Positions 32,198-53,915 of a stretch of 64,000 nucleotides of DNA are shown piece by piece. The stretch is from Ruminococcus flavefaciens. Lineage in GTDB: Bacteria; Bacillota; Clostridia; Oscillospirales; Ruminococcaceae. The DNA is taken from the NCBI GenBank assembly GCA_015067005.1, contig SVNH01000002.1, positions 124,001 through 188,000 of the forward strand, read 5' to 3'. The notes beneath the pieces were generated by a model. The model searched no databases, was not told the DNA's origin, and was given only the letters and a program-made list of their open reading frames with translations. Each line of letters starts with the position of its first letter. Within the stretch, counting starts at the first letter, position 1. The position numbers and the translations under genes are program-made.

Positions 32198-32538
32198 AAA
32201 TAACCCTCCTTTTTTATTTCTCCATAAATGTACTCCTGACGGCATATTAACTGTTCCGCCGACAAATAAGCAAGCGTTAAATAATAATCGTTTATTCATC
32301 GTTTTTATAGCCGCGCAAAACACTTTGAGTCTAAGAGCTTACCATTATTATAACGCACTGCGCCGAAATAGTCAACCCATTTAAAAAAGTTCTGATCGGT
32401 GAAACTTTAACTATAAATCTCTATTGCCATTTGTTATACTGACAGCGCAGCATCCGCTGATAAGACTTAGTAAAAAAAGTGTAAGCGTTTGTGAGTTTGT
32501 TCCGTATATAATAACAGAAGAGGAAAGGAGGCGTACAG
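32198..32538. other. Divergent intergenic region before the sigma operon
   Basis: About 340 bases between the minus-strand LRR gene and the plus-strand sigma gene. GTAAGCGTTTGTG (about 32480) and CCGTATATAATA (about 32501) could be an autoregulated ECF-type promoter, but spacing and consensus are uncertain. Nothing else stands out. Confidence 0.35.
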
Positions 32539-33084
32539 GTGGACGACATAAAGCTGGTGCATCAGCTTAACATGAAGAATGAAAACGCACTTGCTGCATT
32601 GATAGAACGTTACAGCGGATATGTCAGCACGGTCATCAGAAATATATCGCGCGGAGTTCTTGACAGCAGCGACATTGAGGAAGTCATTTCGGACGTATTT
32701 ATAAAACTCTGGAATAATGCCGGTCATCTGCGGGCTGAAACCTTAAGGTCATATATTGCAGTAATAGCGAGAAATCTTGCCATTGACAAAATGAGGTCAA
32801 AGCATATTCAGCTGCCGCTGGACGAGATAGAAACAGATAACGGTCAGGATATAGAATATGAGACAGAACGTAAACTTCTTGTGAGGGAGCTTAACCGCAT
32901 AATTGCTGAAATGCAGCCGCGTGACAGAGAGCTTCTGGTGCGGTTTTACTTTTATTATCAAAGCCTGCCTCAGATCGCAGAGGAAATGGAACTCGGACTT
33001 TCTGCCTGTACAACTGCGCTGCACCGTGCGAGAAATAAGCTAAGGAAAAAACTCACGGAAAGGGGTTATGACTATGAAACATAA
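32539..33084 (+). CDS. ECF-type RNA polymerase sigma factor
   Basis: 181 residues with the two ECF domains. Region 2 (about 15-85) includes VSTVIRNISRGVLDSSDIEEVISDVFIKLWNN and AETLRSYIAVIARNLAIDKMR; region 4 (about 115-175) includes MQPRDRELLVRFYFYYQSLPQIAEEMELGLSACTTALHRARNKLRKKL, a helix-turn-helix for the -35 element. The start is GTG with GGAGG 8 bases ahead. The gene overlaps the start of the next, which encodes a membrane protein with an anti-sigma-like cytoplasmic end. Together they look like a signalling pair controlling this operon. Confidence 0.92.
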   Translation: MDDIKLVHQLNMKNENALAALIERYSGYVSTVIRNISRGVLDSSDIEEVISDVFIKLWNNAGHLRAETLRSYIAVIARNLAIDKMRSKHIQLPLDEIETDNGQDIEYETERKLLVRELNRIIAEMQPRDRELLVRFYFYYQSLPQIAEEMELGLSACTTALHRARNKLRKKLTERGYDYET

Positions 33085-34798
33085 CATATATGATCTTTTT
33101 TCGGAATACTCAGGGGAGCTGCCGGAGATAAAGGAAAAAGCCTGTGATGCTGAGAGGATAAAGCAGCTTGTATCGCAGAAAATGATGCAGTCTGAAGTAC
33201 TTGAGCGCACCGGCTCACAGGTCACTGAACACAATTCTGAGCTGCACCGTGAAGCAGATAATAAGAAACATAAAACACATTTCATAAAGCTGAAAAAGCT
33301 ATATAAATCCAGCAATGCGGCATCGAAAAATGTACAGTCGGAGAGCTATGAAAATGAGGAATACTGCTATTATGAATACAAGGTCAAAGGAGCTGATAGT
33401 ATGAAACAAAAGTGGTTCAAGCCTTTGCGGGCAGCTGTGATAGCGCTTATCGTTGCCGGAGGATTGGTCGGAAGCCTCACGCTTATGAAGTCGATGAAAA
33501 GTGACAAGTCTGATCCTGACGTAAGCGCGGCGGTACCTCAGACGGATACGTCGGCCGATAAAAAGGGTACCGACAAAGATACTATAAAAGTTGCATTTAT
33601 CAGGCAGGAAGAAAGTGCTGCCGGAGAATTTGACAAGCATATCCAGAAATTCAAGGTGGCTAACAGCCAATACCGTTTAGAGGTTACCGAGTACAGGGAC
33701 AGCGACGAAGCCGATGCTTTCAAGCAGCTTACTGCTGACATCAGCGGCGGAACAAAATACGATCTGATAGCTGCTTACCCAGATCAGCTGAGAATACTGG
33801 ACAACAGACACTATCTTTCAGATCTTGGAGAATATATTGATTGTTCCACGAATATCAACCGTTCCGACTTTCTGCCCAATGCGCTTGACGCTATGACGAT
33901 CGGCGATCATATACCGGCTATGGCTTTCGATATCAATATTGAAACGATATGCTGTCAGACAGAACGTCTTGATTCGCCGCACGAAAACTGGACTATTGAG
34001 GAGGCTGTCAGCTTCATTGACAAGCTTTCTGACGAAGAAAAATCCGGGCTTCTCGGACCTGCTACAACGAAGAAGGAGATAGCAGCTTTCTTGATAACAG
34101 GAGCTGTCAACAGCTCCGTTGACTTCCGGAATAATAAGTTCGATGCAGAGAATGGTCTGCGTCAGGCGCTGGAGTATATTTATTCAATGCCGGATGATTC
34201 CGGCGTTTACAAGGGGGAAACAGCCAGAGCTAAACAGATACTCTCATCTCCGTATGTATGCATAGACTATTTTTACGGAGACAGGACTATTTCACAGCAG
34301 GATAACAAACCGGTAACTCTTGTCGGATTTCCAACTGAATCAGGAAACGGCTATCACCTTGATAACTGGAATTATATGTATGGAATAATGGATAATGCCG
34401 AGAACAAGGAAGGTGCGTGGGCTTTTATTGAATTATTCCTAAGTGACGAAATGCAGAGCTATGTTGATATCGTTCATGGTCTTCCGGTTATGGAAAGTGC
34501 CCATAAGCAATGGTGGGACAGGGCTCCTGAATATCAATTCTCAATAAACAGTCCGCTCGTTGAGTCTTATGATGCTCCCAAAAACGGAGAGGCAGCAAAC
34601 ATTACTATCACAGATGCTCAGAAAAAACAGCTTGATGATTATATCCATAATATGAAGATTTTCATCTATGAAGACGAGGAAGTTGTGAACATAATAAAAG
34701 AGGAATGCGACTATGTTATAAACGGCGAACGCACTCCGGATCAGTGCATAGATATTCTCAATGACCGCATAGGAACATATCTTGCCGAGAATGAATAA
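33074..34798 (+). CDS. Anti-sigma-like membrane protein fused to an extracellular solute-binding domain
   Basis: About 574 residues. ATG at 33074 (AGGGG 8 bases ahead) or ATG at 33068; both overlap the sigma gene by up to 17 bases. Residues about 1-115 are cytoplasmic, charged and helical, starting HNIYDLFSEYSGELPEIKEK like the N-termini of membrane anti-sigma proteins, though no zinc motif is present. One helix (about 119-139) is followed by a linker and, from about 170, a complete family 1 type solute-binding domain (KVAFIRQEESAAGEFDKHI ... NYMYGIMDNAENKEGAWAFIELFLSDEMQ). The next two genes are sugar-type ABC permeases. So the transporter's binding protein appears to double as the sensor and sigma-factor tether. 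I know of no described example. Confidence 0.82.
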   Translation: MKHNIYDLFSEYSGELPEIKEKACDAERIKQLVSQKMMQSEVLERTGSQVTEHNSELHREADNKKHKTHFIKLKKLYKSSNAASKNVQSESYENEEYCYYEYKVKGADSMKQKWFKPLRAAVIALIVAGGLVGSLTLMKSMKSDKSDPDVSAAVPQTDTSADKKGTDKDTIKVAFIRQEESAAGEFDKHIQKFKVANSQYRLEVTEYRDSDEADAFKQLTADISGGTKYDLIAAYPDQLRILDNRHYLSDLGEYIDCSTNINRSDFLPNALDAMTIGDHIPAMAFDINIETICCQTERLDSPHENWTIEEAVSFIDKLSDEEKSGLLGPATTKKEIAAFLITGAVNSSVDFRNNKFDAENGLRQALEYIYSMPDDSGVYKGETARAKQILSSPYVCIDYFYGDRTISQQDNKPVTLVGFPTESGNGYHLDNWNYMYGIMDNAENKEGAWAFIELFLSDEMQSYVDIVHGLPVMESAHKQWWDRAPEYQFSINSPLVESYDAPKNGEAANITITDAQKKQLDDYIHNMKIFIYEDEEVVNIIKEECDYVINGERTPDQCIDILNDRIGTYLAENE

Positions 34799-34906
34799 AT
34801 ATGAGGATATGCCTGTTGCAATGAAAACGATTGTGATAGGCATATTTGTTATCAATAAAGTAAATGAAATCCGATAATGTTCGCAAATAAAAATGGATGT
34901 GATTAT

Positions 34907-35791
34907 ATGAAATTATTGAATGGACAATGCGGTCGGCGCAGAGAAAAAGTGTTCAGCAGCATCTGCATAGTGCCGAGCCTTGTGGGAGTGCTCATATTCT
35001 TTCTGATACCTTTTGGTATCGTTGTGTACTACTCTCTTATCAACAATCCTGTTATGAAGGACTATGTCGGACTTGAAAACTACAAGTCGCTGATGCAGAA
35101 CTCCGCATTCAGAAAGGCTGCAAGGAATACAGCGCTATTCTCGGCAGTTTCAGTTCCGCTGGCAGTGGTACTTTCACTTGGACTGGCTGTGCTTCTTGAA
35201 AGAAGCATCCCCGGAAAAAGCATACTCCGTACTTTTTTTCTCAGTCCGCTTATGGTGCCTACCGCATCGGTAGTCCTTGTGTGGCAGGTACTCTTCCACA
35301 GCCACGGAACTGTAAATCAGGTGGCGGAGATGTTCGGAGGCGAGCCGGTTGACTGGCTGAAATCCTCTAAGGGACAGCTCGTCATAATACTGATGTTCCT
35401 ATGGAAGAATATCGGCTACAATATGATACTCTTTATGGCAGCATTAAGCGGTATTCCGCGCGATATGCTGGAGGTCGCAGAGCTTGAGGGAGCAGGTGCG
35501 TGGTACAGGTTCGTACATATAAAGCTGAGGTACCTCTCCCCCACCATACTCTTCGTTTTTATACTTTCGCTGATTAACTCCTTCAAAATATTCCGCGAGG
35601 TTTACCTGCTGACCGGTAATTATCCGTTCGACAGGCTGTATATGCTCCAGCACTTTATGAACAACACCTTCAATAAACTCGACTATCAGAAGCTGTCCGC
35701 AGCAGCAGTTCTGTTCGCCGTGATAATGATAGTAATTATAGCAATACTGCTCATAATCGAGAATATATTCGGAAAGGACGTGGAGAACTGA
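34907..35791 (+). CDS. Carbohydrate ABC transporter permease, MalF/UgpA type
   Basis: 294 residues from the ATG at 34907 (GGATGTG just ahead; an in-frame ATG at 34877 is possible). Six membrane helices, with the EAA loop DMLEVAELEGAGAWYRFVHIKLRYLSP that docks the ATPase. The N-terminal VPSLVGVLIFFLIPFGIVVYYSL helix is typical of the MalF branch. It overlaps the next permease by one base (TGATG), so the two are translationally coupled. The solute-binding domain is in the upstream fusion protein. No ATPase gene is present; a shared MsmX-like ATPase elsewhere in the genome is likely. Confidence 0.93.
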   Translation: MKLLNGQCGRRREKVFSSICIVPSLVGVLIFFLIPFGIVVYYSLINNPVMKDYVGLENYKSLMQNSAFRKAARNTALFSAVSVPLAVVLSLGLAVLLERSIPGKSILRTFFLSPLMVPTASVVLVWQVLFHSHGTVNQVAEMFGGEPVDWLKSSKGQLVIILMFLWKNIGYNMILFMAALSGIPRDMLEVAELEGAGAWYRFVHIKLRYLSPTILFVFILSLINSFKIFREVYLLTGNYPFDRLYMLQHFMNNTFNKLDYQKLSAAAVLFAVIMIVIIAILLIIENIFGKDVEN

Positions 35792-36690
35792 TGAAGCGAA
35801 AAAGACGAAAGAAAACACTCGACATAGCTGTCACGGTATTTGCTGCTCTCGGAGCGGTTTTGTTCCTGCTCCCGACCGTACTTACCATAGCGAATTCCTT
35901 TATGACTTCAAGCGAGATCACGGCAAATTACGGCGCTATGTACAGCAATATGACCGACAGCGAAAAGACCTACATATCCGAAGATGTAAACCTCAAATTC
36001 ATTCCGGACAAAGTGACAATCGAACAGTACCGTGCAGTGCTGATAACAAATTCTGACTATCTGGTGAAGTTCTGGAACTCTGTATGGCTGACCGTGCCGA
36101 TAACGCTCTTTCAGCTGCTCATAGCCATACTGACTTCATACGGCTTTGCGCGCTATCCCTCGAAGCTGAAAGGCATCATATTCTTTGTCTACATAATACT
36201 GATGATAATGCCATATCAGGTCACGCTTGTGCCAAATTATCTTGTTGCGAAAAAGTTCGGACTGCTGAATACATGTTCAGCTATCATACTCCCTGCAATA
36301 TTTTCACCGTTCAGTATATTTCTGCTGACAAAGGTAATGCGCCGAGTGCCTGTATCTTACGTTGAGGCTGCAAAGCTCGACGGCGCAGGGGAATTTCAGA
36401 TACTGACGAGGATATATCTTCCGCTCTGCAAAAATGCTGTCATATCCATAGGTATGCTGGTGTTCATCGACTACTGGAATATGGTCGAGCAGCCGCTCAT
36501 ACTTATGACAAGCGACGACGCAAAGGCTCTGCACCCGCTTTCGGTGTTTCTGTCGCAGATAAATACAAGCGATGTCGGACTTGCATTTGCAGTTGGCGTA
36601 GTTTATATGATACCGACTATACTGATATTCCTCTACGGCGAGGACTGCCTTGTTGACGGAATCGCGTACTCAGGCGGTATCAAAGGATAG
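35791..36690 (+). CDS. Carbohydrate ABC transporter permease, MalG/UgpE type
   Basis: 299 residues, six membrane helices, EAA loop SYVEAAKLDGAGEFQILTRIYLPLCKNA. An extracytoplasmic loop between helices 1 and 2 (about 45-85, NYGAMYSNMTDSEKTYISEDV) is larger than usual for MalG-type proteins. It pairs with the preceding permease to form the channel of an oligosaccharide or glycoside importer. The stop is 11 bases before the adaptor gene, so the operon continues. Substrate cannot be inferred; the nearby cellulosomal genes make a plant-derived oligosaccharide plausible. Confidence 0.93.
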   Translation: MKRKRRKKTLDIAVTVFAALGAVLFLLPTVLTIANSFMTSSEITANYGAMYSNMTDSEKTYISEDVNLKFIPDKVTIEQYRAVLITNSDYLVKFWNSVWLTVPITLFQLLIAILTSYGFARYPSKLKGIIFFVYIILMIMPYQVTLVPNYLVAKKFGLLNTCSAIILPAIFSPFSIFLLTKVMRRVPVSYVEAAKLDGAGEFQILTRIYLPLCKNAVISIGMLVFIDYWNMVEQPLILMTSDDAKALHPLSVFLSQINTSDVGLAFAVGVVYMIPTILIFLYGEDCLVDGIAYSGGIKG

Positions 36691-36701
36691 GAGATGGTGC
36701 T

Positions 36702-38480
36702 ATGAATGATATAAAAAACGAAAGCGTGAACAGTGTAGAGCTGCATTCCTCTGAGGACGAAGTAAGAAGAATAACCGAAAAACTGAACAGTTCAGATGCT
36801 AAAATAAAAGATCCTGCAAAGCGCCGCGAAATAATAAAAACGCTGCTGATAATCTTCCTTACGGCACTGCTTCTGCTGACATTTTTCTCGAATACTATTA
36901 TGAACCGCGCACTTGCAGAAATCTCAACCGAAAGGGTAACTGCCGGCGAGCTGACGGAACGCATAAGGGGCAGCGGTATGGTGGAGGCTGAGCAGTCCTA
37001 CGAAGTCAGTGTGAACGAAAACCGTACCGTGGATAAGATCAACATCAAGGCAGGTCAGAAGGTCGTTGAGGGCGATGTTTTGTTTGTTCTCGGCTCAGGA
37101 CAGGAACAGTCGCTGACAGCTGCCAAGAACGAGCTTGCCACTCTTGAGCTTGAATACAATAAGCTGCTGCTGACCGCTCCGGCTGATTACACCTCGGAAA
37201 ATCAGGAGATAAAAAATGCTGCCGAAGACCTTGAAGAAGCTATACGCCGCCGCGATGCAGCTTATGCCGCTCAAAACAGCTCCGCAGAGGCACAGGAGCA
37301 GTACAAGGCAGATAAGAATGAAGCTGCAAGTCTTTCGGCACAGCGTGACAAGCTCAGTTCAACTATCGGCGCTATCGACAGTGATGATTACACAGCTGCT
37401 GCCGCTGAGCTTACAGGCGACCTTCCGGCTCTGAAAAACAGCTGGCAGTCTGCTGAGAGCGAATATGCCGCAGCCTATGAGGTTTATAAGTCGGCAATTG
37501 GATCAGGCGATGCTGAAACTGCTCTTGCGGACTGCAATGCCAAGAACGAAAAGAGGACTTCCGCCAAAACAGCATATGAATTAAAAAAGAGCAGTATCCG
37601 CGCAGAGCTTGCTTCAAGACTGAATGATGCTGAAACAAAGCTCAGCGAAGTCAACTTGCGGATAGCTTCATACGAGGAAAATAATTCCGCAGGCGGTATG
37701 AGTTTCGAGGAATGTGCGGCTGAGGTTCTTGCAAAGCAGCGTACACTTGAAAATCTGCGTATAAACCTCACTAAGCTGCAAAATACAAACAGCATTGCAC
37801 AGCAGCAGTACAAGCTTGATCTTGAAAACAAACGTGATACCATAGAAAAGAAAAAGCAGGAGCTTGAAAAGCTCCGCGGCAGCAGTTCTTCAATGGAGGT
37901 AGTCTCAAAGTACAGCGGCATCATCCGTTCAGTCAATGTGAATCCGAATGAAATGACAGCGGCAGGAGTTCCGCTTGCGGTCATTGATCTTAACGATGCA
38001 GGATTCAAGCTGAAAGTTTCCGTGCCGGCAGAACAAGCCAAAAAGGTCTCGGTCGGAACGACCGCTCAGGTCATCAATAACTGGTCCGGGGATGCTAAGG
38101 CTGTACTCGCTGACATAAAAAATTCCGATGCTGATGCGAATACTATGACGCTGGTGTTCAATATCAGCGGCTCTGTTACTGCAAATACAAATATGGAAAT
38201 ATCTGTTCCTCTCAGCACAGCTCAGTATCAGGCTATTGTTCCGAAAAGTGCGGTATTCAGCGATCAGAACGGTTCATTCGTGTATAAGCTGCGTTCAAAA
38301 AGCACTCCACTCGGAAACAGATATTATGCAGAAAGAGTATCAGTGCAGGTAGCGGCTTCTGATGAACGTTCAAGTGCTGTTTCAGGCGAACTTAATAATA
38401 CCGATAACGTCATAGTTGCATTCAGCAAGCCGATCACTGCCGGAGATCAGGTACGGCTGAAATCAAAGAACAAAGTATGA
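36702..38480 (+). CDS. HlyD-like adaptor protein
   Basis: 592 residues with GGAGATG 6 bases ahead of the ATG. A cytoplasmic tail of about 45 residues precedes one helix (about 47-68), then a split lipoyl-type domain (KINIKAGQKVVEGDVLFVLGSG), a long coiled coil (about 135-400, many Ala, Glu, Lys) and a second lipoyl/barrel part (SKYSGIIRSVNVNPNEMTAAGVPLAVID). This is the layout of adaptors of MacB-type exporters. It follows the sugar permeases by 11 bases and overlaps the MacB-core gene by four bases (ATGA), so it is cotranscribed with both. Why an export adaptor lies in a sugar-importer operon is not clear. Confidence 0.87.
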   Translation: MNDIKNESVNSVELHSSEDEVRRITEKLNSSDAKIKDPAKRREIIKTLLIIFLTALLLLTFFSNTIMNRALAEISTERVTAGELTERIRGSGMVEAEQSYEVSVNENRTVDKINIKAGQKVVEGDVLFVLGSGQEQSLTAAKNELATLELEYNKLLLTAPADYTSENQEIKNAAEDLEEAIRRRDAAYAAQNSSAEAQEQYKADKNEAASLSAQRDKLSSTIGAIDSDDYTAAAAELTGDLPALKNSWQSAESEYAAAYEVYKSAIGSGDAETALADCNAKNEKRTSAKTAYELKKSSIRAELASRLNDAETKLSEVNLRIASYEENNSAGGMSFEECAAEVLAKQRTLENLRINLTKLQNTNSIAQQQYKLDLENKRDTIEKKKQELEKLRGSSSSMEVVSKYSGIIRSVNVNPNEMTAAGVPLAVIDLNDAGFKLKVSVPAEQAKKVSVGTTAQVINNWSGDAKAVLADIKNSDADANTMTLVFNISGSVTANTNMEISVPLSTAQYQAIVPKSAVFSDQNGSFVYKLRSKSTPLGNRYYAERVSVQVAASDERSSAVSGELNNTDNVIVAFSKPITAGDQVRLKSKNKV

Positions 38481-39556
38481 AACGCAAAATAAAAGCAAGA
38501 TCTATTATACTTGCGGCAGTAAACCTCGCGGCTATTGCAGCAGCGGCAGTGTTGTCACTTGTCGGAAGCTCACTGGCAAAGTCTCAGCGTTACAACTATG
38601 CCGCTGACCGCTGGACGCAGGGCGCTGGAGGCTGCACTCAGGTTAGCTGTTTTTTCTCTGACGATTCCGGATTTGTGAAAGACAGTATAATGTCTGTGAG
38701 GATGTCGCTGCTGAATTCACTTGAAAGCGCGGCTGTGGTACAGAAAAAAGGTCAGACATTGTGTCCGGCCGCTTACAGTGCTCCGGTTGGACGCTTTCAG
38801 GTGACCAGTGATAGAATTGGTAATTCGCAGGCAGATGTTACGGCTGTCGGAGGTGAGTTCTTCCTCTTCCGGAGCTTTGATCTTCTTCACGGAAACTATA
38901 TCAGTGACAGTGATCTTATGCAGGACGGCGCAGTTATCGACAGAACGCTTGCATTCAGCCTTTACGGCTCGGACAATATCGCAGGCATGAATATTTACAT
39001 CAATAATACAAGCTTCCGTATTGCCGGCGTTATTGACGATCCGCGTACAAAGTATGAGAGGGAGTGTGCCGGTGACTATCCAAAGGCATATATATCTTAT
39101 CCCAAAGCGGCTGAGTTATCAGGCGGCGAGCCGTTCTCTAAGGTAAGCTGCTATGAGGTTATAGTTCCAGATCCGGTGGAAAATTTCGGATTCAGTGCCG
39201 TTGAAAAGATATTTGGAAACGAATACGAGGGCAAGATCATACTGGTCAATAACACCAAGAGGTTCACCTCAGCTGTTCGCACAGGTGAACTGAAAAACAT
39301 CAGCCGGAGTGACATTCGTCAGGAGGCAATAAGTCTGCCTTACTGGGAGAATGCTTCGCGGATAGTTGAGCATAAACTGACGGTGATTTACAGCAAACGC
39401 AGAGCCCTGATTGCAATACCTCTGATGACGCTTTTGTGGGCAATAGTCCGGACTTACAGGTGGCTGAGGTCAAAAAGAAAAACTGTATTCAGCGGTATAT
39501 CGGATAAAGTGTACGCTCTCATGTGTTGGATGAAAAGCAAGCGTTCTCAGTCGTGA
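38477..39556 (+). CDS. MacB-core-domain membrane protein, permease-like but without the C-terminal helix bundle
   Basis: 359 residues: one helix at about 12-32, a MacB-type extracytoplasmic core domain (about 40-285, with VTAVGGEFFLFRSFDLLHGN, DRTLAFSLYGSDNIAG and FRIAGVIDDP), then a single helix (about 312-330) and a basic tail. Normal MacB-type permeases have three C-terminal helices with an ERTREIG motif; these are missing here, so it is either a specialised half-permease or a truncated one. Its last codons overlap sequence resembling the -35 to -10 region of the tRNA-Leu promoter, which suggests the gene end was set by the rearrangement at 39574. Confidence 0.78.
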   Translation: MKRKIKARSIILAAVNLAAIAAAAVLSLVGSSLAKSQRYNYAADRWTQGAGGCTQVSCFFSDDSGFVKDSIMSVRMSLLNSLESAAVVQKKGQTLCPAAYSAPVGRFQVTSDRIGNSQADVTAVGGEFFLFRSFDLLHGNYISDSDLMQDGAVIDRTLAFSLYGSDNIAGMNIYINNTSFRIAGVIDDPRTKYERECAGDYPKAYISYPKAAELSGGEPFSKVSCYEVIVPDPVENFGFSAVEKIFGNEYEGKIILVNNTKRFTSAVRTGELKNISRSDIRQEAISLPYWENASRIVEHKLTVIYSKRRALIAIPLMTLLWAIVRTYRWLRSKRKTVFSGISDKVYALMCWMKSKRSQS

Positions 39557-41926: not shown

Positions 41927-44900
41927 TCAATAAAGATAGAGATTTACGAATTTATGTTTCTGTTCAAATTGAGCTTTTGACCAAGTACGCGCCCATATAT
42001 GGCGGCTGATATAATTACCAGAAAATGCGCCGCCAAAAGCACCTTCACGATAATAAGATGTAGCGGTATTACTACCGGGCTCTATGATCTTACCTTCAAC
42101 AGTAAATGTGTACATATCCCCTGATTCTCTAGTTTTCGTAATGTCTAATTTCCTTTGGGATTCGATCAGAAGACCATACGGAAGGATCATACCAGCGTCT
42201 GCAAATTCATCTTTGAAACTTGATGTACGCATTTTGCCTTTGAACTTATTCAGCTCAATCTCTGACCAGTTTCTTGATTCATTGGTGTTATATGTATTAA
42301 AGCGATCTTTAATGTGGAGAGCACCATATTTTCCCTGGAATCTTTCAGAGTCATCAGATGTCTCTGCAAAGATCTTCTTGCCAAGAACGTAACAATATGG
42401 GTAGTATTCCGGATCCTTGCCAGTAGGTAATTTGACCTTTGTTTTTCCAGGTGTAGTAGCTGTATCATAGTGAAGGAAGAACATCTCGACTCCTGGAGCA
42501 GCCAAATGTGTGTTATTAAAGCTGCAATAACTGCGATCCTTTTGATTAATATCGTAATCATCGTCAAAATACATATTGACTACTGCTTTTTTATCATTGA
42601 ATTCATCCTTGGTATAGTAAAGATAGTAATCATGGTGAAAACTGCCTTTTTTCTCAGCTGGAACACCTGTATCAAGTCCACCCTTGTTCTTTATGAAAAC
42701 ATCGTCACCAGTATAGGGTGTCGGATCAAATGTATTAAAGCCAATATGATCTTTGAAAGCAGCGTGAACTTTTATTGGTTCATCATCATTATCTGTAAAG
42801 CAGGCAAATCTCTTTATTGCATCGTCATAACTATCTGTTGTCTTGTATCCGAGATAAATATAATGACCTCCGAATGTATCGTTAAGGTTCTTGTCGATAA
42901 CGGTATATCCCTCGTCTGTGAGATACTTTTTAGCCGTCTCTGCACTATTTGCATCACCTGCAAGCTTCACTTCACCGATGAATTTTCCATCGATCTCAAC
43001 TTCTTTAGTGCCAACTACCGCATCTACCTCACTTACAGGGTGACCTATATTGCTCATTGCCTCAAGCTGATTCAATGCTTTCTGCACATTATCCTGAACT
43101 ATTTCAAAATCAGGATTATTCGGATAATTGTCGATCTTATTGTAATATCCGACAAGTGCAAGGCCCTTGTTTATGAGATATTCAGCTGTTGTTCTCTGAG
43201 CAAGTCTGAATTCATAGCACTGTGAGTCAAAATTATAGGCAGTTGCACATATCTCATCATATCTGATGATAGGGTTAGAACTGTCATTTCTTGCCAGCTC
43301 GCAGGCAACATCGTTCAATGACTTATACAGTTCATTATATGTATTTGTATAACCTGCGAATTCCTTATCAAATTCGTTTTGTTCTCTCTTAGTGAGATAG
43401 TCGGTAAGACGCTCGTTATAATCAGCAGCTTCTTTATCGGTCATATTGTCTACATTAGGAGCATAGAGCTGCCTGTACTTTTCCTTTTCAGCCTCTAAAA
43501 CTTCTCTTCTCATTCCGGCAAAACTCGGCATCTTATCCAGCTTTCCAGATGCAACTGCATCTTCAAGTGCCATATAAAGTGCGCCGTTCTTCAATCGCAT
43601 AGTCATATTATCAATATTGGTGCGAAGTGTTGCAAGATCCTTTTGATATGTTTCGTTTGCACCTGAAACGATCTGACCAGTCATTTTCTCCAGATCATTC
43701 ATTATGACAAACTGATTTTCAAGCACTTTACTTACCTTTTTATCGACCTGAGCTATTGCCTCCATAAGCTGCTGGTGTTCAGATTTTATGACACCTGTTA
43801 ATTCAAGAACAGTCTTTGCAATCGAGAAAACCTGACTTGCAACACCACCCCAGTAAATTATAGTACCTAATTTAGTGTCCTTTCCTCTAACATACTTCTG
43901 TATCTCAAGAAGAGTTTCCTCATTGAGCATAATATTTGGTTTGATTGATCCTGCTCCTCCGCTCTTCATGTTCCTTCCAAGGGTCTCTGCGGAGTACTCA
44001 CGGGTATAAGAGCACTCCTTAGTGGTCTTTTCGCCCCAGTTGTTCACAAGAGCACCGGCTTTTACAGTAACAGTACCGTTCATCAGGAAATTATCACTGT
44101 CCTGACCGTTTGCGGGAACAGAGATGATAAGCTCCGCAATACCGTCATTGTCGATCTCTACTGATTCAGCCTTTGCACCTTCAAAATCGTCGCCGAAACT
44201 GAACTGTGATGTGCTGATCGAACTATCAAAATCGCCGTAGAATGCATACAGCTTGAGTGTAAGTTCGAGATCTTCACCTTTTTCGTCAACATAGTCAAAT
44301 ACAGGATAGAAATCAGCCTGAGAAAGACCGATCATAGTATCATAACTGCCGATAGTAATTGACTTGCCGCTTATGAGATCAACGAAGTCGTTTACGCTCT
44401 TGATATTTTCTTCCGACATAGTTAATGTAACTCTGCCGTCATCCTTCTTCTCAACGTTTTCAATGGTAACACCCTCAATTTTGATATTATCTTTAGTGAG
44501 AGAGTCAATGTCAGCAACGCCGCAAACTATCAGATCAGCTGTTACATTACCATCAGCAAATTTGAGTGAAGAACTGTCAAATCCTGCGTATTCACTCTGA
44601 ACATCTATGTTTGCAGAAACACTGACATAACCGTCTTTGATTGCCTTAGGCGAAACACTGATAGTTCCCCACTGATAGACACCTGCCTCGTTTCTTACAG
44701 GCTCACCCGATAACTTCATTGTGAGGTTTTTGCCGGAAGCGGAAACACTGTCGACCGTCATAGCGGAAAAAGCGTCATCAAGTGAAATCTCTTCTTTGGT
44801 GACTTCGTTTTCAAATTCGCTGCCGTCAATAGTCAGAGTGATCTTGGTTTCCTTATCTGAGGACATGACCGCATCTACATCTGGAGTAAGCTTTATCTTA

Positions 44901-45397
44901 CTGAATTCAACAGGAACAGAAACTCCCCCGTCAATATCATCGAAGAAAATGGTGTATGAATCTGTCACATATTCGTAAGGCGTTTCATCGGTAAAAGTGA
45001 TGTCTATACCGTCTTTGTCATTCTTGGAAACGCTTTCGACCTTAACCTCTACTGATTCTTTTTCGTCTGACTCGTAAACTAATCCGCTGTCCTCATTAAT
45101 AACCTTGTTGATATTTGTAAGGTAGCTGATTTCGATATTATCAGCTGTCAGACCCGAAAGGTCAACTTCATCAGAAGAAACCGTAGTTTTGTACATACCA
45201 TCTTTTGAATAGCTTACAGGAGTGGCTTTTACCGGATTCTCCTTTATTTCTTCTGAGTCAGTAGCTGTCTCAGCCGTAGTTTCTGTCGTTGCTGCACTCT
45301 CAGAACTTGATTTATTTTTGCTTGAACAGCCTGTAGCAAACGCTGTACAAATTGTTAATGCAGTAATGAATGCTATTATACGTTTTGTATTAGTCAT
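41927..45397 (-). CDS. Large toxin-like lipoprotein (Ig-like repeats, helical bundle, beta-prism-like repeats)
   Basis: 1156 residues with a lipobox ATGC (Cys at about 24) and a Ser/Thr/Glu linker. About 60-480 is beta-rich, with several units of about 90-100 residues ending in patterns like VEVKVESVSKNDKDGIDITF, probably Ig-like. About 500-800 is helical: VASQVFSIAKTVLELTGVIKSEHQQLMEAIAQVDKKVSKV is a hydrophobic helix followed by a coiled coil, like the helical part of some pore-forming proteins. About 850-1060 holds YIYLGYKTTDSYDDAIKRF and YYLYYTKDEF words that recall MABP/beta-prism domains of MACPF-type toxins. No family covers the whole chain to my knowledge. GGAAAGGGG precedes the ATG. 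The function is unknown; a cell-surface adhesin or antagonistic toxin fits the layout. Confidence 0.75.
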   Translation of the reverse strand: MTNTKRIIAFITALTICTAFATGCSSKNKSSSESAATTETTAETATDSEEIKENPVKATPVSYSKDGMYKTTVSSDEVDLSGLTADNIEISYLTNINKVINEDSGLVYESDEKESVEVKVESVSKNDKDGIDITFTDETPYEYVTDSYTIFFDDIDGGVSVPVEFSKIKLTPDVDAVMSSDKETKITLTIDGSEFENEVTKEEISLDDAFSAMTVDSVSASGKNLTMKLSGEPVRNEAGVYQWGTISVSPKAIKDGYVSVSANIDVQSEYAGFDSSSLKFADGNVTADLIVCGVADIDSLTKDNIKIEGVTIENVEKKDDGRVTLTMSEENIKSVNDFVDLISGKSITIGSYDTMIGLSQADFYPVFDYVDEKGEDLELTLKLYAFYGDFDSSISTSQFSFGDDFEGAKAESVEIDNDGIAELIISVPANGQDSDNFLMNGTVTVKAGALVNNWGEKTTKECSYTREYSAETLGRNMKSGGAGSIKPNIMLNEETLLEIQKYVRGKDTKLGTIIYWGGVASQVFSIAKTVLELTGVIKSEHQQLMEAIAQVDKKVSKVLENQFVIMNDLEKMTGQIVSGANETYQKDLATLRTNIDNMTMRLKNGALYMALEDAVASGKLDKMPSFAGMRREVLEAEKEKYRQLYAPNVDNMTDKEAADYNERLTDYLTKREQNEFDKEFAGYTNTYNELYKSLNDVACELARNDSSNPIIRYDEICATAYNFDSQCYEFRLAQRTTAEYLINKGLALVGYYNKIDNYPNNPDFEIVQDNVQKALNQLEAMSNIGHPVSEVDAVVGTKEVEIDGKFIGEVKLAGDANSAETAKKYLTDEGYTVIDKNLNDTFGGHYIYLGYKTTDSYDDAIKRFACFTDNDDEPIKVHAAFKDHIGFNTFDPTPYTGDDVFIKNKGGLDTGVPAEKKGSFHHDYYLYYTKDEFNDKKAVVNMYFDDDYDINQKDRSYCSFNNTHLAAPGVEMFFLHYDTATTPGKTKVKLPTGKDPEYYPYCYVLGKKIFAETSDDSERFQGKYGALHIKDRFNTYNTNESRNWSEIELNKFKGKMRTSSFKDEFADAGMILPYGLLIESQRKLDITKTRESGDMYTFTVEGKIIEPGSNTATSYYREGAFGGAFSGNYISRHIWARTWSKAQFEQKHKFVNLYLY

Positions 45398-45866: not shown

Positions 45867-48800
45867 TCATAATTTGTCAATGAGTTTAAGCGAGTAGCGC
45901 TGGATAATGAGGGCATCGTTAGCGGAAAGACATTCCTTGCCGTCAACATCGCCGGCTTTTTCGCCTTCTGCGGTGATGCGGTCTTCGCTTGTACCGTTAA
46001 CGCCGTACCTTTTCGGGTTGAGGGAAGCCTGCATTACAATTACCACATCGGACATATTTACGTCATTATCACCATTGGCATCGCCGCTCTTAAGAGTGAT
46101 CGCTCCTGTTGTTTGCTGTATATTACCAGAAGTTGTCTGAATTGTTGAATTCTGAGTTGTTGATTGTACAGTTTGAACTTCAGTAGTAGACTGAGAACCT
46201 AACGATACGAATCTCTTACCATACTTATCAGCATAAGCCTGCGCAGTTGATCCGTCATAGCCATATATTGTTCCGCTGGTATTACTATAATAGTTTTTAG
46301 AGATAGTTAATTCATCATCATAGATATCACAGTCAGGATTCATAATATAGATATCTTCAAGGTCTCCGCATACGAAAGCGCATCTTCCGATACTTGTTAC
46401 AGATTCGGGAACAGTTATTTTCTTTATAGGCACATATTGAAATGCGCAGCCTCCAATTGTTCTAAGATTCGTTCCTAAAACTATCGCAGGGAGATTACGG
46501 CAATTACTGAATGAAGCTTCTCCTATCTGATTAACGCTTTCTGGAAGGATTATTTCTTCGTTAATTGACATACAATCTGAAAACGCCCTGTCTCCGATAA
46601 CTTCAAGACTTGTGAGCTTATCCCAGTTCAGTTTCTGAAGGTCACTGCCTGAAAAAGCATCTTCGCCGATAGTTTTAGTTTCTTTTGGAAGGTTGATCTT
46701 CTTTGCATGAAGATTAGCGAACGATTCAGGAGCAATATCGGTATCATGGGTAATAGTTATAGTTTCAAGGCTCTCCGTTGAAGTATAATCGCCATTATTA
46801 TCTCTTCCAAACAGCAGATCTCCGGGAACATCTGCATGATAATCGTCTTCCTTAATACTCTTGGGCGTAAGATGAGTATCAGCAAGAGTCAAATTTTTCA
46901 ATGCGTTGCAACCCTTAAATACACTTCTGCCTATCCAATCAACAGTTCCGATCTTTGCACTTATAAGATCACTGCAATTGTAGAAAGCGCTTGCCCCGAT
47001 GTAATCCATATGATCCGGCAGTGTTACATCAGTAAGAGAAGAGCAGGCTGTAAACGCACTGTCGCCGATGTGTTTCAGATTATTTCCAAAAGAAATATCA
47101 GGAAGGCGCTGGCAATAATAGAAAGCCTTGTCGCCGATATATTCAATAGATTTCGGTAATTCAAATTCATTCAGCTTTAAGCAGTAGTAAAAAGCTTCAT
47201 CTCCTATGTTTTTTATAGAATCCGGCAGTATTACTGTTTTAAGATTCTCACAAGCAGTAAATGCGCCTTGTGGAATATCTGTGCCGTTTCTGATCGTGAT
47301 TTTTTCAATGATATGCCTCGTATCAACGCTATATGTACCTTGTGTATTACTAAAAAGATCAACAGGTGTTTTGGCTGCATCTTCATCTGTTAAAGCAGGT
47401 GTCAGATCAGCCTTTTCGATAGATAGTTCTTTAAACAAACTGCAGTCTTCAAACATTCCTTTTCCATAGTATTCCGCATTTCCTATAGTAGCTTTCTCGA
47501 TCGACGACCATGCAAACGCGCTTTTTCCTATACGCTTAATATTATCAGGAAAATTAACTACTGAAAGCTTTGAACTAGCAAAAGCACTTTCACCTATCTG
47601 TATATTCATATTCTCAGGCAATACAATTTTTCTTAAACCAGCATCCAAAAAGCACTTTGGTGAGATATAGCTTCCACAGCCGGGATGAAATTTACGTCCG
47701 GAAGGTTTAGCTACAAATTCCTGATTTTTAATATCGAATGTATTTCTTTCAGGTTGATTATCATTGTATTCTAATCTGTCATATTCTCTCCAGCCGTCTC
47801 CGCCGCAGAAGAGGGAATTTATCCAATGAACATATGTTACCATACAATGTGCATTTGGCATACTAATTCCATATTTAATAGCATTTTTTGCAACTTTTAC
47901 GATATCAAGAAGATTTTCATAATCGTCAATTCTTGATAATGCCTTATCTATCTCATATACTATTTTTACTCTAGTGACACCCTGATAGGATATTCTATCA
48001 AACGGATTAGGAATAAGAAGGAATAAATAAATCAGGTCGTTTATCGCCTTATTTTTATCTACTGCTGCAATAAGCGCATCAGCATTATCCTCTGTATTTA
48101 GAATCTCTTCACGGAATCTTTTTAATTCATCTCGATAACTACTGCATTTTTCCAAGTGATCCTTAGTTAATTCATCAAGATCTTCAGCTTCATTCATACG
48201 TTCGATAAAATCATCATTATCGCTGTTATTATCATTAGAATTATCCTCACTGATAATTCGCTTTACATAATACTTAATATCTTCTTCATCATAAATTTTA
48301 TTTGAATCTAACAGCATTTTATATATAAGATTTGAATAGAAAAAATTAGCTGTTTTTTCATTTTTAATAGTGAGATAACGCATAGCTTCTTCAGGTACTG
48401 CGCTTAGTATATCCTGGGGTGTCATAGATTCATTTAACTCACCTTTATACTTTTCACCGGTAACACGTTGATACTGCTGTAAGAAGTTCTCATACGGTGC
48501 ACCTTTAGTCTGAAGAGTAACAGTCTGACCAAAGCGCTTATATCCCCAGTCTTCCATCGGAAGCAATGGCACTATATCAATCGGATTATTGAAGTTATAT
48601 ATATTCATAAGCGTATCATCAGCACGTTTGCTTACTGCCGGACAAGCAAACGTATACGCAAAAATCTGATTGCGCGGAGCAAGTTTCTCTTCAACCGAAA
48701 GCTTGCCTGCAACAATATTAGCTACTGCTGCTCCACGGCTATGTCCGGTAAAAAGGAAGATACGATGATCTTTGTCATATTCGCTGCCGGTTTTAGCAAC

Positions 48801-49466
48801 AACATCATCAAGAGCATCATAAACCGTTTCAGCAGCATCGTAGAAGCCCTTATGATCCTTTCCAGGTCCCAGTCTCATATTTGCAAACCATTCAAGGTCG
48901 GCAGAAGTTCCTTTAACAGGAACTGCATACAATATATATTTTTCGCCTTGATGTTCTATCTCCTTGTGACCGATATAATATCCTGCTGTATTGCAGTCAT
49001 CAAGTGTTGGAATATCAACATTGTAATCATCAAGTGCCAGAGCATTAGTCTCTATATCAGATTTTTTGCAATGGAATCCCATTTGAGTAAATAAGCTGTT
49101 TACACGAATTGTTCGATCTTGAATTGGAGCTTCATAATCGTAATATGCTGAACAAGCAAGAGCTACGGCAAGTTTAATAATATCAGCATTCATTTCTTCT
49201 GCGTCTGCAACTTTTGTTCCTGAGAACCACATATCATCAGAATAATCAAATGATAATTGGTCTGTCATATTCATCTCGGTAACACTTTCACCTAATCCTT
49301 TACGATAATCGTATTCAATATGCTTATATTCAGACATAGCTTCATCAGTTACTGCTACCTCAGCAATTGCAGTTGCCAAATTTTGATCTGCACTAAGTCC
49401 ATAACCGCATGTAACAAACATCATTACAGATGCAATTAAAATAGACAGGCTTCTTTTAAAAATCAT
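45867..49466 (-). CDS. Secreted class 3 lipase-like domain, BspA-type LRRs and dockerin
   Basis: 1199 residues from the ATG at 49466 (GGAGG 9 bases ahead). Signal peptide about 1-27. About 90-420 is an alpha/beta-hydrolase of the lipase class 3 type with nucleophile elbow GHSRG in LFTGHSRGAAVANIVAGKL and NFNNPIDIVPLLP after it. A helical region (about 430-600) follows, then about 14 LRR_5 repeats (VTIPDSV..IGEAFxxC type) and a dockerin (GDANGDNDVNMSDVVIVMQ ... NDALIIQRYSLKLI). It should be an exported esterase carried on the cellulosome or cell surface; substrate may be lipid or an acylated polysaccharide. A paralogue with the same order lies at 51414. Confidence 0.88.
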   Translation of the reverse strand: MIFKRSLSILIASVMMFVTCGYGLSADQNLATAIAEVAVTDEAMSEYKHIEYDYRKGLGESVTEMNMTDQLSFDYSDDMWFSGTKVADAEEMNADIIKLAVALACSAYYDYEAPIQDRTIRVNSLFTQMGFHCKKSDIETNALALDDYNVDIPTLDDCNTAGYYIGHKEIEHQGEKYILYAVPVKGTSADLEWFANMRLGPGKDHKGFYDAAETVYDALDDVVAKTGSEYDKDHRIFLFTGHSRGAAVANIVAGKLSVEEKLAPRNQIFAYTFACPAVSKRADDTLMNIYNFNNPIDIVPLLPMEDWGYKRFGQTVTLQTKGAPYENFLQQYQRVTGEKYKGELNESMTPQDILSAVPEEAMRYLTIKNEKTANFFYSNLIYKMLLDSNKIYDEEDIKYYVKRIISEDNSNDNNSDNDDFIERMNEAEDLDELTKDHLEKCSSYRDELKRFREEILNTEDNADALIAAVDKNKAINDLIYLFLLIPNPFDRISYQGVTRVKIVYEIDKALSRIDDYENLLDIVKVAKNAIKYGISMPNAHCMVTYVHWINSLFCGGDGWREYDRLEYNDNQPERNTFDIKNQEFVAKPSGRKFHPGCGSYISPKCFLDAGLRKIVLPENMNIQIGESAFASSKLSVVNFPDNIKRIGKSAFAWSSIEKATIGNAEYYGKGMFEDCSLFKELSIEKADLTPALTDEDAAKTPVDLFSNTQGTYSVDTRHIIEKITIRNGTDIPQGAFTACENLKTVILPDSIKNIGDEAFYYCLKLNEFELPKSIEYIGDKAFYYCQRLPDISFGNNLKHIGDSAFTACSSLTDVTLPDHMDYIGASAFYNCSDLISAKIGTVDWIGRSVFKGCNALKNLTLADTHLTPKSIKEDDYHADVPGDLLFGRDNNGDYTSTESLETITITHDTDIAPESFANLHAKKINLPKETKTIGEDAFSGSDLQKLNWDKLTSLEVIGDRAFSDCMSINEEIILPESVNQIGEASFSNCRNLPAIVLGTNLRTIGGCAFQYVPIKKITVPESVTSIGRCAFVCGDLEDIYIMNPDCDIYDDELTISKNYYSNTSGTIYGYDGSTAQAYADKYGKRFVSLGSQSTTEVQTVQSTTQNSTIQTTSGNIQQTTGAITLKSGDANGDNDVNMSDVVIVMQASLNPKRYGVNGTSEDRITAEGEKAGDVDGKECLSANDALIIQRYSLKLIDKL

Positions 49467-49487
49467 TTTCAACAACCTCCATTATAA

Positions 49488-51222: not shown

Positions 51223-51470
51223 ACAGTGTATTCATATTTTTCTACATTGTATACAACTCGTGATGCGTTTATTTGTAAAATGTGCTAAGCGCGGATAATT
51301 CTCTTAAAAGTTAAACGTTTATTCTTGTATTGGAAGATTCATATGACTTGGTCTGTTGGGAGATAGGACAAAAAATCACCGGTCTCATGTTATGTGAGAC
51401 CGGTTTTGATTTATTATAATTTATCAATAAGCTTCAGGGCAAATTTCTGAATAAGAAGTGCATCATTAGC
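51223..51470. repeat. Duplicated segment, copy 1
   Basis: About 245 bases that are nearly identical to 54004-54250. It covers non-coding sequence, a terminator hairpin (ACCGGTCTCAT/ATGTGAGACCGGT, 51378-51407) and the last codons of a dockerin gene, so the 3' end of an LRR-dockerin gene plus its downstream region was copied. Confidence 0.9.
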
Positions 51471-53915
51471 GGAGAGTCCTTTATTACCGTCAACATTGCC
51501 GGCTATTTCGCCTTCGGGAGTTATGCGGTCAGGACTTGTACCATTTACACCGTATTTCTTAGGATTCAAGTATGCCTGCATTACAATAACGACGTCTGAC
51601 ATATCAATACTGTTGTCGCCGTTGGCATCGCCGGTAGAGAACTTTCCTCCGGACTGGCTTGACGGCATATCAGTTACCTTCTCCGTGGTTGCCTCAGTTG
51701 ATACATATTCTGATGTAACAGGCATCTCAGTGGAAGGCTGCTGAGTTACGATAACTGTTTCTGTAACTATCTGTGTTACGATGACTGTTTCTGTAACGAT
51801 AACTGTCTCAGTAACGATAATTGTCTCAGGCGGCTGAGAACCGGTAACGATATCCGATGTGGTAGGCTCTGTGCCGCTGCCGAGAGATACAAACTTAATA
51901 CTGTTGTCGTTTGCATATTGTTCAGCTGCTGTGCCGGTATAACCATAGATCACATAATCACCGATGCGTGTGGTTGCGTATCCGAAAGCACGAGTGCCGA
52001 TAGATGTAACAGTGCTTGGGATAGTTACGCTCTTGAATTTAGCACCGCAGTTGCAGAAAGCATAATCGCCAACACTTTTAAGGTTCGGCGGAAGGTCAAC
52101 CCCCTTTAACGAAGAACATCCATTGAATGCATACTCATATATACTTGTTACAGTATCCGGTATCTTGATTTCTTTCAAGGATTTACAATCACTAAACATT
52201 GCGTAGCTTATATTAGTAATATTAGCCGGAAGTTTTACACTCTCTAAGGATGTACAACCGCTAAAAATGCCTGGAGAATGATTTGCGTAACCAATTGTAG
52301 AAACACTATCGGGGAGACTTATTGTCTCCAAAGAAGTACAACCAGCAAAAGCACCCTTTCCAATTTGCGTAACACTGTCAGCAATAGTAACATCCTCTAA
52401 GGATATACAGCCTCCAAAAGCATCGGTGTCAATTATAGTAACGCTTTCCGGAATATCAATGCTGGTCAATGACTTACACTGATAAAAAGCAAAACTATCT
52501 ATTTTGGTTATACTATCCGGTATCGTTATATTATCAAGCTTTGAACATCCTCGAAACATATTGTAACTCAATTCAGTAACAGAATCCGGAATATCAAAGC
52601 TTTTCAAGCTTTTGCATCCGCTAAATGCGTTGCTTCCTATATTAAGGATGCTGTCCGGAAGAGTGATAGATTTCAAACCGCCACACCCCGAAAATGCACT
52701 ATCGCCAATAGCTGTAACACGCTTGCCTTCTATCTTCTTGGGTATCTCAATGTTTTCAAGCAGTCCATCGCAGTCTGTGATGGTGACCGTGCCGTCAACT
52801 TTATATGAAATATGATCAAAGAGGTCATGCTCGGAATCCTCAAAGAAAAGGCTCTCTCTTAAACGGAAATCGAGCAGATCAGGCTCATTTCTGAGATATT
52901 CGAGATACTTGCTGCCGGGGTGATATTCAATTGCACGGGCAATAAGAGTTCCGAGGCTGAGAGTTATATCGTCCTGATAAATATTTTCCTGAGCATAGTA
53001 ATTGTTCCAGTCGTCAGAGAACCAGAAGGAATTACCGAATTTGCCCCAGTATTTTGTTATAGGCTGGCTGGTCAAACGCTTCCATGTCTCTCCAAGACCA
53101 ATGCCGTTGGCAATGCTTGCACAGGAAGGAACCATGCTTATAGGATCAAGTGCATTGCTGATATTGAAGATATTGTTGTATTCGCCAAAATCAGTGCCTC
53201 TGAGATAAGCTACATCAGGAACAGCAAAATTGTAATTAAATACTTTTCCTTTACCAATATGGCTATCTTTAGAAAGTGCCATAGCAACAAGGTTTCCGAC
53301 TGCTGCACCTCTGCTGTGACCTGTTATGATATATCTGTCATATCCATAAGAAATATGTCTCGATACTTCATTAGCGGCAGTCTCAAATCCGTAGTGATAG
53401 CCGCCGTCATCGCCGATCTTATCATATCCTACATTCAGATCGCTGAACCACTCATTCTGTGCTAAAGAGCCTTCTGTGGTCTGAGTTCCTCTTATAACGA
53501 TAAGGCATTCTTTTTCGCCGTTTGCGGTTGTTTTTGTACCGACAGTAAAACCGATATTATCCGGATCAGTTCCCTCTTCATTATAGCCTACCTGATAAAA
53601 ATCAGAGGTATCAAAGCCGAGCGCCTGATAGTTCTTGTTGGTGTCCTCCTGATTATAAGCGCCTGTTGCGAGCGTTACGAGCATATGTGCAAGACGGGGG
53701 CTGTATGTGCAGGAATAGCTGTCATCAAGAAGGTAATCAAGATCATAGCTGAAGCTTTCCTTGTTTCCACCGTCATACAGAAGCGTTACGCCCTTCGTGA
53801 CTGCGTTTGCAATGGAAGATTCTGTCATCTCCGGCAGCATATTCAGCGTACTGCACATCATGATCGCCGAAACTGCTGATGCAAGACAACGTTTAAGTTT
53901 GTTTCTTACATTCAT
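51414..53915 (-). CDS. Secreted class 3 lipase-like domain, BspA-type LRRs and dockerin (paralogue)
   Basis: 833 residues; AAAGGAGG lies 7 bases before the ATG at 53915. Signal peptide about 1-38. The lipase class 3 domain (about 70-330) has IVIRGTQTTEGSLAQNEWFSDLN, the nucleophile elbow GHSRG in YIITGHSRGAAVGNLVAMAL and ISNALDPISMVP. About nine to ten LRR_5 repeats (about 385-690) precede a Val/Thr/Glu linker made of ETVIVT repeats (about 710-745) and a dockerin (GDANGDNSIDMSDVVIVMQ ... NDALLIQKFALKLI). Same order of domains as the 45867 gene but only moderately similar in the lipase part, so it is an older duplicate. Predicted cellulosome-borne or surface esterase. Confidence 0.9.
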   Translation of the reverse strand: MNVRNKLKRCLASAVSAIMMCSTLNMLPEMTESSIANAVTKGVTLLYDGGNKESFSYDLDYLLDDSYSCTYSPRLAHMLVTLATGAYNQEDTNKNYQALGFDTSDFYQVGYNEEGTDPDNIGFTVGTKTTANGEKECLIVIRGTQTTEGSLAQNEWFSDLNVGYDKIGDDGGYHYGFETAANEVSRHISYGYDRYIITGHSRGAAVGNLVAMALSKDSHIGKGKVFNYNFAVPDVAYLRGTDFGEYNNIFNISNALDPISMVPSCASIANGIGLGETWKRLTSQPITKYWGKFGNSFWFSDDWNNYYAQENIYQDDITLSLGTLIARAIEYHPGSKYLEYLRNEPDLLDFRLRESLFFEDSEHDLFDHISYKVDGTVTITDCDGLLENIEIPKKIEGKRVTAIGDSAFSGCGGLKSITLPDSILNIGSNAFSGCKSLKSFDIPDSVTELSYNMFRGCSKLDNITIPDSITKIDSFAFYQCKSLTSIDIPESVTIIDTDAFGGCISLEDVTIADSVTQIGKGAFAGCTSLETISLPDSVSTIGYANHSPGIFSGCTSLESVKLPANITNISYAMFSDCKSLKEIKIPDTVTSIYEYAFNGCSSLKGVDLPPNLKSVGDYAFCNCGAKFKSVTIPSTVTSIGTRAFGYATTRIGDYVIYGYTGTAAEQYANDNSIKFVSLGSGTEPTTSDIVTGSQPPETIIVTETVIVTETVIVTQIVTETVIVTQQPSTEMPVTSEYVSTEATTEKVTDMPSSQSGGKFSTGDANGDNSIDMSDVVIVMQAYLNPKKYGVNGTSPDRITPEGEIAGNVDGNKGLSANDALLIQKFALKLIDKL

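Follow-up and report, generated by a model that had tools for sequence, protein, structure and literature searches.

In a 64,000-nucleotide stretch of a Ruminococcus flavefaciens genome of 2.79 Mb in 28 contigs (the window; contig SVNH01000002.1, positions 124,001 to 188,000; G000:C26:124001-188000), a gene at 33074..34798 encodes a protein that joins an anti-sigma-like N-terminal part, through one membrane helix, to a complete solute-binding protein (SBP) domain. It lies directly behind a gene for an extracytoplasmic function (ECF) sigma factor and is followed by two importer permease genes. We consider it likely that this fusion is a one-protein receptor for the ECF sigma factor, with the SBP as its outer sensor, and that it controls its own importer operon. 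Our reading builds on features computed from the sequences: the architecture, the homology of the N-terminal headpiece to partners of ECF sigma factors, the co-inheritance of headpiece and sigma factor, the SBP fold, and a single conserved promoter. In addition, the sigma gene is present only in those permease clusters that have a fused or adjacent SBP of this kind.

Architecture of the sigma-fusion pair

The sigma gene, its presumed promoter, and the parts of the fusion are as follows. Type A refers to the kind of sigma factor and headpiece found in the window.

32480..32510, + strand: promoter of ECF type, TGTAAG-N17-CGTATA (in its extended form TGTAASNNTTT-N12-CGTAYATA), which the sigma factor presumably recognizes; drawn from 12 type-A loci
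32539..33084, + strand: ECF sigma factor, 181 aa; Pfam Sigma70_r2 and Sigma70_r4_2 over the cut-off, and TIGR02937
33074..34798, + strand: anti-sigma-like, membrane helix, and SBP fusion, 576 aa; open reading frame (ORF) opens at 33068; ortholog (L031/L063) 80% identical
33074..33202, + strand: headpiece, residues 3-45, presumed sigma clamp, similar to the N-termini of separate anti-sigma-like proteins
33203..33424, + strand: cytoplasmic linker, ending in the motif E-E-...-K-x-K/T-G-A/V-D/G, which other fusions have too
33386..33403, + strand: possible internal start (speculative), AAAGGAG at 33386-33392 followed by an in-frame ATG at 33401 (Met112)
33425..33487, + strand: membrane helix, residues ~120-140, from the sequence and from AlphaFold2 (AF2) helices 110-131 and 110-143
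33575..34795, + strand: extracellular carbohydrate-type SBP domain, residues 170-576 (SBP_bac_8)

The sigma factor has sigma regions 2 and 4 only and, with 181 residues, is of the size of about 180 residues expected of the ECF group. Its gene overlaps that of the fusion by 11 bp; we set the start of the latter at 33074, the second ATG, and not at 33068 because homologues begin there. The initial annotation, made from the DNA sequence alone, had described an ECF sigma factor, a single-span protein with cytoplasmic helices and a full SBP, and two permeases, and this layout was confirmed as intact. The fusion resembles a membrane anti-sigma factor in its position directly behind the sigma gene, in its one membrane helix, and in an N-part homologous to the partners of other ECF sigma factors. 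This N-part is charged and helical, with headpiece helices at 7-11 and 28-48 in the AF2 model; the model of the isolated N-terminal part had a pTM of 0.23 and was not used for fold search. Sub-threshold Pfam matches to BAMBI_C over the membrane helix and to Botulinum_HA-17 at residues 61-129 were both taken as chance.

The outer part has the SBP_bac_1/8 fold of family-1 carbohydrate SBPs according to Pfam, the AF2 model, and fold comparison, the last of which links it to YesO, CbpC, and MalE-like SBPs. These links come from fold comparison only, as a phmmer search of PDB sequences with the SBP part returned nothing at E<=0.01. The fusion has no lipobox cysteine, and no Cys at all occurs between its residues 101 and 258. 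Membership of the RsgI family was considered and rejected, since neither PF12791 (RsgI_N) nor PF23750 (RsgI_M) matched the fusion at E<=1. As a separate protein, the window genome does encode an RsgI-like one, its gene preceded by that of a sigma-like factor (L087:1158-2192, contig C26), in which RsgI_M is over the cut-off (4.9e-14) and RsgI_N below it.

Modular headpieces and the recurrence of fusions

Window residues 3-35 up to 3-45 were 44-76% identical, over 33-43 aa, to the N-termini of separate type-A anti-sigmas (six of nine compared). Beyond the headpiece no similarity to these proteins was found (best E 0.097), and the linker and membrane module of the window protein resemble those of the other fusions instead. 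Judged by these alignments, the window fusion is a mosaic. A second comparison, between two fusions that lie in one genome (G104), gave a corresponding picture. Fusions A and B of this genome share 36 of 38 residues (102 of 114 nt) of the membrane module and 70 of the last 75 nt, and their SBP middles are 29.5% identical. Their headpieces are unrelated (E 8.3), and their sigma factors are 24.7% identical. The headpiece thus goes with the sigma factor while the membrane module and the SBP are kept. No other sequence evidence speaks as strongly for a headpiece that holds the sigma factor as this change of the one with the other.

Profile comparison extended the homology to other ECF systems. The N-modules of the fusions aligned at 98.9% probability (hhalign, E 3.4e-17) with N-modules of the partners of seven further ECF sigma factors, five of which belong to the window genome; these partners are counted as anti-sigmas by inference from position and topology. 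Behind each of eight more ECF genes of the window genome lies a gene for a protein with a single predicted membrane helix (L080-L086, L089; simple hydropathy). One of these eight partners has a Beta_propel ectodomain and the rest have no Pfam match at 0.01. Since the outer parts of ECF partners vary in this way, SBP ectodomains would be one more kind among interchangeable outer parts.

A search with the first 45 residues in 125 genomes of the genus matched 12 genomes. The headpiece is joined to an SBP in three of them, namely the window genome, G128 (which we take to be uncultured Ruminococcus sp. RUG127, the closest relative), and G104; in the other nine, it heads a separate protein of ~410 aa with another ectodomain (one cut by a contig end). 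Altogether, six sigma-SBP fusions were found in four genomes (these three and G131). Homologues of the fusion that never adjoin a sigma gene had been named as grounds for abandoning the idea of a sigma-bound sensor; in the genus, an ECF gene immediately precedes each of the six, and the identity of these sigma factors to that of the window falls as low as 24%. In each of the four genomes, the permA-permB-hlyD-macB run of the window lies behind one of the fusions. Three sigma-fusion pairs, their sigma factors all different, adjoin one another in G104 (C32; L058, L067), and in G131 (L064, L092) the fusion is upstream of the permeases.

A profile built from the six fusions scored these at 729-815 bits in the 125 genomes, a match that holds by construction. 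As the next match was a plain SBP at 364 bits, no seventh fusion turned up. A search with a type-B fusion gave mostly ~800-aa SBPs among the matches listed. We also surveyed 394 sampled genomes of the order, of which 27 matched at 1e-40, 25 of them outside the genus. No fusion was seen outside the genus in this survey: the 25 matches (not read individually) are frames of 738-910 aa aligned only from profile position 96 on, as expected for ~800-aa SBPs and not for fusions. The genus searches scored no more than 11 first-look candidates per genome and the order survey no more than three, so rare or distant fusions could be missed.

The two functions also occur as neighbouring genes. Among the nine genomes with a separate type-A anti-sigma, an SBP gene lies directly behind it in six (L039, L040, L041, L060, L061, L062). 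The assembly of a seventh genome, G022, is interrupted at this point, and an SBP gene lies after the end of such an anti-sigma gene on another contig (L044). The SBP of G007 led to an eighth pair (L045), the start of which is lost at a contig end. Every one of the eight pairs shows a 4-bp overlap between the anti-sigma gene and that of the SBP lipoprotein, and each of these SBPs carries a lipobox-like cysteine. A second cluster in G128 (L091) is unfused throughout, with genes for a sigma factor, a 415-aa anti-sigma-like protein, a 516-aa SBP, permA, permB, hlyD, and macB. Outside the type-A loci, a separate SBP lies within two genes of an ECF sigma gene at four of 20 loci (L109, L116, L118, L120). 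These 20 were chosen among the best separate-SBP matches of the genus search, with contig-edge matches and loci already read mostly left out. Sigma genes at these loci and at L143-L148 were recognized with a profile from 19 sigma proteins (E<=1e-5).

Operon, promoter, and history of the permease cluster

Downstream of the fusion, the run continues with four genes.

34877..35791, + strand: importer permease A (permA), BPD_transp_1; orthologs (E<=1e-60) occur in 113 of the 125 genomes of the genus
35791..36690, + strand: importer permease B (permB), BPD_transp_1
36702..38480, + strand: HlyD / RND-adaptor-like protein (hlyD), adjoining permease B in the relatives read too
38477..39556, + strand: MacB periplasmic-core-like (MacB_PCD) membrane protein (macB), last gene of the run; gene order kept in relatives

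The genes from 32539 to 39556 are tightly packed or overlapping, stem-loops on the + strand lie inside genes only in a terminator scan of the run, and promoter-like sites occur in it at background frequency. Co-transcription to 39556 would fit this arrangement. The two permeases and the SBP are those of a CUT1-type importer operon. A Pfam scan found no cognate ATPase gene within 32539-39556; the single MalK-type (OB_MalK) protein of the genome is encoded elsewhere (G000:C12), and an ATPase-like ORF beside macB was noticed only in L058.

Before the genes of the type-A sigma loci (12 loci, several of them close pairs) stands the pattern TGTAA(C/G)..TTT with a 17-nt spacing and CGTA(T/C)A. It is of the TGTAAC/CGT type expected of an autoregulated ECF promoter, the window site reading TGTAAG. 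We scanned 12 genomes, a set that left out G022 and G007. At up to two mismatches the pattern had 46 sites, against 43 for a reversed control pattern. At zero or one mismatch, each of the 11 scanned genomes with this sigma factor had exactly one site, at its own sigma operon, and G131, which lacks this sigma factor, had none. As the pattern was drawn from these loci, its presence there holds by construction and the result is its uniqueness per genome. The simplest interpretation is that the regulon would be the operon itself.

The permease run is itself a conserved Ruminococcus cluster (window 34877-39556; L068-L072, L143-L148), in which two permeases, an HlyD-like protein, and a MacB_PCD-like protein are usually accompanied by a two-part SBP of ~800 aa. 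The N-terminal ~390 aa of this SBP is presumably a propeller; in the one scanned (L071), Pfam matched the SBP part only. Of the 50 permA matches that rank next to those of the window and G128:C89, 41 are followed at a distance of 3.5-7 kb by an SBP frame of 690-910 aa among the matches listed. The other nine comprise two in which an ~800-aa SBP was found on reading (L145, L147), one cut by a contig end (L144), three sigma-free clusters with no SBP after macB (L143, L146, L148), and three sigma-type clusters (G131, G104, G128:C74). A sigma gene precedes permA in all five clusters with a fused or directly adjacent SBP and in none of 25 other clusters read upstream of permA (L123-L142 and L143-L147, G021 counted once; four have <2 kb), most of which end with the different, ~800-aa SBP of the same family. 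An SBP of ~800 aa is missing from the window genome, and the fusion was its sole match to the SBP family in genome searches. It is likely that the fusion replaced the ~800-aa SBP in this genome. The four fusion operons form a group in the hlyD tree (96/92); the unfused G128 cluster is its sister (100/100), and five clusters with the ~800-aa SBP stand apart. It is the hlyD tree alone that points to a single origin of the fusion operons.

Selection was estimated from window and RUG127 sequences (NG86). The ratio of nonsynonymous to synonymous substitution rates (dN/dS) was 0.24 for the whole fusion, 0.20 for the SBP, and 0.13 for the membrane module (residues 112-145, 34 codons); for the neighbours it was 0.175 (sigma factor), 0.03-0.05 (permeases), and 0.24 (hlyD). 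The frame is preserved across the join, and the headpiece and linker evolve faster.

Further downstream, the window holds a lipoprotein-like ORF of 1156 aa with no Pfam match at 1e-3 (41927-45397) and two ORFs in which Lipase_3 is joined to BspA-type leucine-rich repeats (45867-49475 and 51414-53915), one of them with a dockerin.

Proposed mechanism, alternatives, and known systems

In the mechanism that we propose, the headpiece (residues 3-45) would hold the sigma factor in the cytoplasm, and the one membrane helix would join it to the outer SBP, the past or present binding protein of the neighbouring importer. The SBP would bind a ligand, by its fold probably an oligosaccharide, either alone or docked on the permeases. 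Ligand binding, or alternatively its absence, would trigger release of the sigma factor, either through a change in conformation or, as in RsgI, through stepwise cleavage in which RseP takes part; RseP has a homologue here. The freed sigma factor would then transcribe from 32480-32510, yielding more sigma factor, sensor, permeases, and HlyD/MacB-like partners. The proposal of the initial annotation that the SBP of an importer serves as the sensor for the sigma factor gains support, at the level of sequence, from headpiece homologues encoded behind orthologous sigma genes, from the alignment of the N-module with other ECF partners, and from the fact that the same permease cluster elsewhere carries another SBP of the same family.

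Several observations weigh against this mechanism. The fusions are rare, in four of 125 genomes of one genus with none seen in the order outside it. There is no SBP gene behind the type-A anti-sigma in two of nine genomes (L042, L059), which indicates that this anti-sigma can work without one. The headpiece is short and has no match to a Pfam anti-sigma domain, and dN/dS is laxer in the headpiece (0.49) and linker (0.45) than in the SBP. A sigma-70-like site just before permA (34849-34878), of a kind found at background frequency, makes a separate permease promoter possible. Because the three sigma-free clusters without an SBP after macB also lack the ~800-aa SBP, its loss in the window genome need not stem from the fusion. 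Finally, the fusions do not form a single clade in the permA and permB trees, falling on one side in 47% and 8% of bootstrap trees, respectively.

A broader version of the idea is possible but doubtful. The fusions would represent a plug-in class of receptors, in which the SBP of an importer serves an ECF sigma factor as covalent sensor and swappable headpieces of ~40 residues rewire it to different sigma factors. Two products would arise through Met112, a full sensor and a clamp-free SBP that supplies the permeases, and a single binding site would serve both transport and sensing. Met112 is invariant in all six fusions and GGAG lies upstream of it in five, and an internal start there might, speculatively, give a membrane-anchored SBP without the clamp. 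The conservation of Met112 and GGAG could also be due to shared descent and codon choice.

It seems unlikely that the SBP is only the binding protein of the importer, tethered by the anti-sigma helix, with the sigma factor sensing another cue such as permease traffic or envelope stress. The fusion does adjoin importer permeases that elsewhere have another SBP, and transport may depend on it, since it is the only SBP of this family seen in the window genome. The type-A anti-sigmas of L042 and L059, which have another ectodomain, likewise get by with no SBP behind them. In the fusion, however, the SBP occupies the whole place of the ectodomain of the separate anti-sigma, leaving the protein no other outer domain. 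We regard it as quite improbable that the N-part is not an anti-sigma and that a sigma gene and a membrane SBP are merely co-transcribed. The lack of a Pfam anti-sigma domain would fit such an arrangement, but homologues of the headpiece are encoded behind orthologous sigma genes, a change of sigma factor goes along with a change of headpiece, and the N-module matches the profile of other ECF partners, themselves anti-sigmas by inference. Although most relatives with this headpiece have separate genes for both functions, we rejected an assembly or annotation artefact that joins two genes, given the intact frame on ONAI01000056 (80% identity) and in G104 and G131, and the purifying selection seen over the joined region (dN/dS 0.13 in the membrane module).

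The receptor mechanism that we favour resembles that of SigI-RsgI in Clostridium thermocellum, where an alternative sigma factor is held by a membrane anti-sigma that senses outside substrates. The outer parts of RsgI proteins are carbohydrate-binding modules or enzymes. The window system differs in that the partner is an ECF sigma factor, that neither RsgI_N nor RsgI_M matches the fusion, and that the outer part is an importer-type SBP. RsgI signalling in C. thermocellum is described as involving RseP cleavage and ClpXP (PMC12203970). With CUT1-type ATP-binding cassette sugar importers, the window operon shares the SBP fold and two BPD_transp_1 permeases. It departs from them in that the SBP is anchored by a membrane helix behind an anti-sigma-like part and not by a lipid, that no ATPase is encoded in the operon, and that HlyD-like and MacB_PCD-like partners are present.

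XylFII-LytS is reportedly an SBP-dependent sugar-sensing system. In it and in CuaD-CuaS-CuaR, the SBP is a separate protein that acts on a histidine kinase, whereas here it is a covalent part of the membrane partner of the sigma factor. In CuaD-CuaS-CuaR, the SBP reports extracellular sugar and triggers importer genes (PMC10384115); clusters of an SBP and a histidine kinase were also proposed for C. cellulovorans (PMC4441647). Because the link is covalent and the apparent regulon is a single operon, ligand, switch, and output should be testable with one protein, one sigma factor, and one promoter. The natural swaps of headpieces point to ~40 residues that would set sigma specificity, which could be useful for sugar-responsive switches, and the fusion offers a handle on the conserved Ruminococcus importer cluster.

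Known pairs of ECF sigma factors and membrane anti-sigmas control transport or glycan genes, as the window pair would; those pairs differ in that they involve TonB-dependent transporter genes and carbohydrate-binding domains (PMC10766802, PMC8999054). Solute- or substrate-binding proteins are not mentioned in PMC10766802, and the word "solute" is absent from PMC8999054. SBPs are listed as signalling to chemoreceptors, sensor kinases, cyclic-di-GMP enzymes, and Ser/Thr kinases, with sigma factors not named in that list (PMC9602780). The initial annotation held that a fusion of an SBP with an anti-sigma was undescribed. This stands for the literature searched, which took in few subscription journals and parts of the sources: no anti-sigma described as having an SBP for its outer domain was found there. 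We interpret the window pair as a variant, so far new, of ECF sigma/anti-sigma signalling, an interpretation that appears well supported by sequence comparison.

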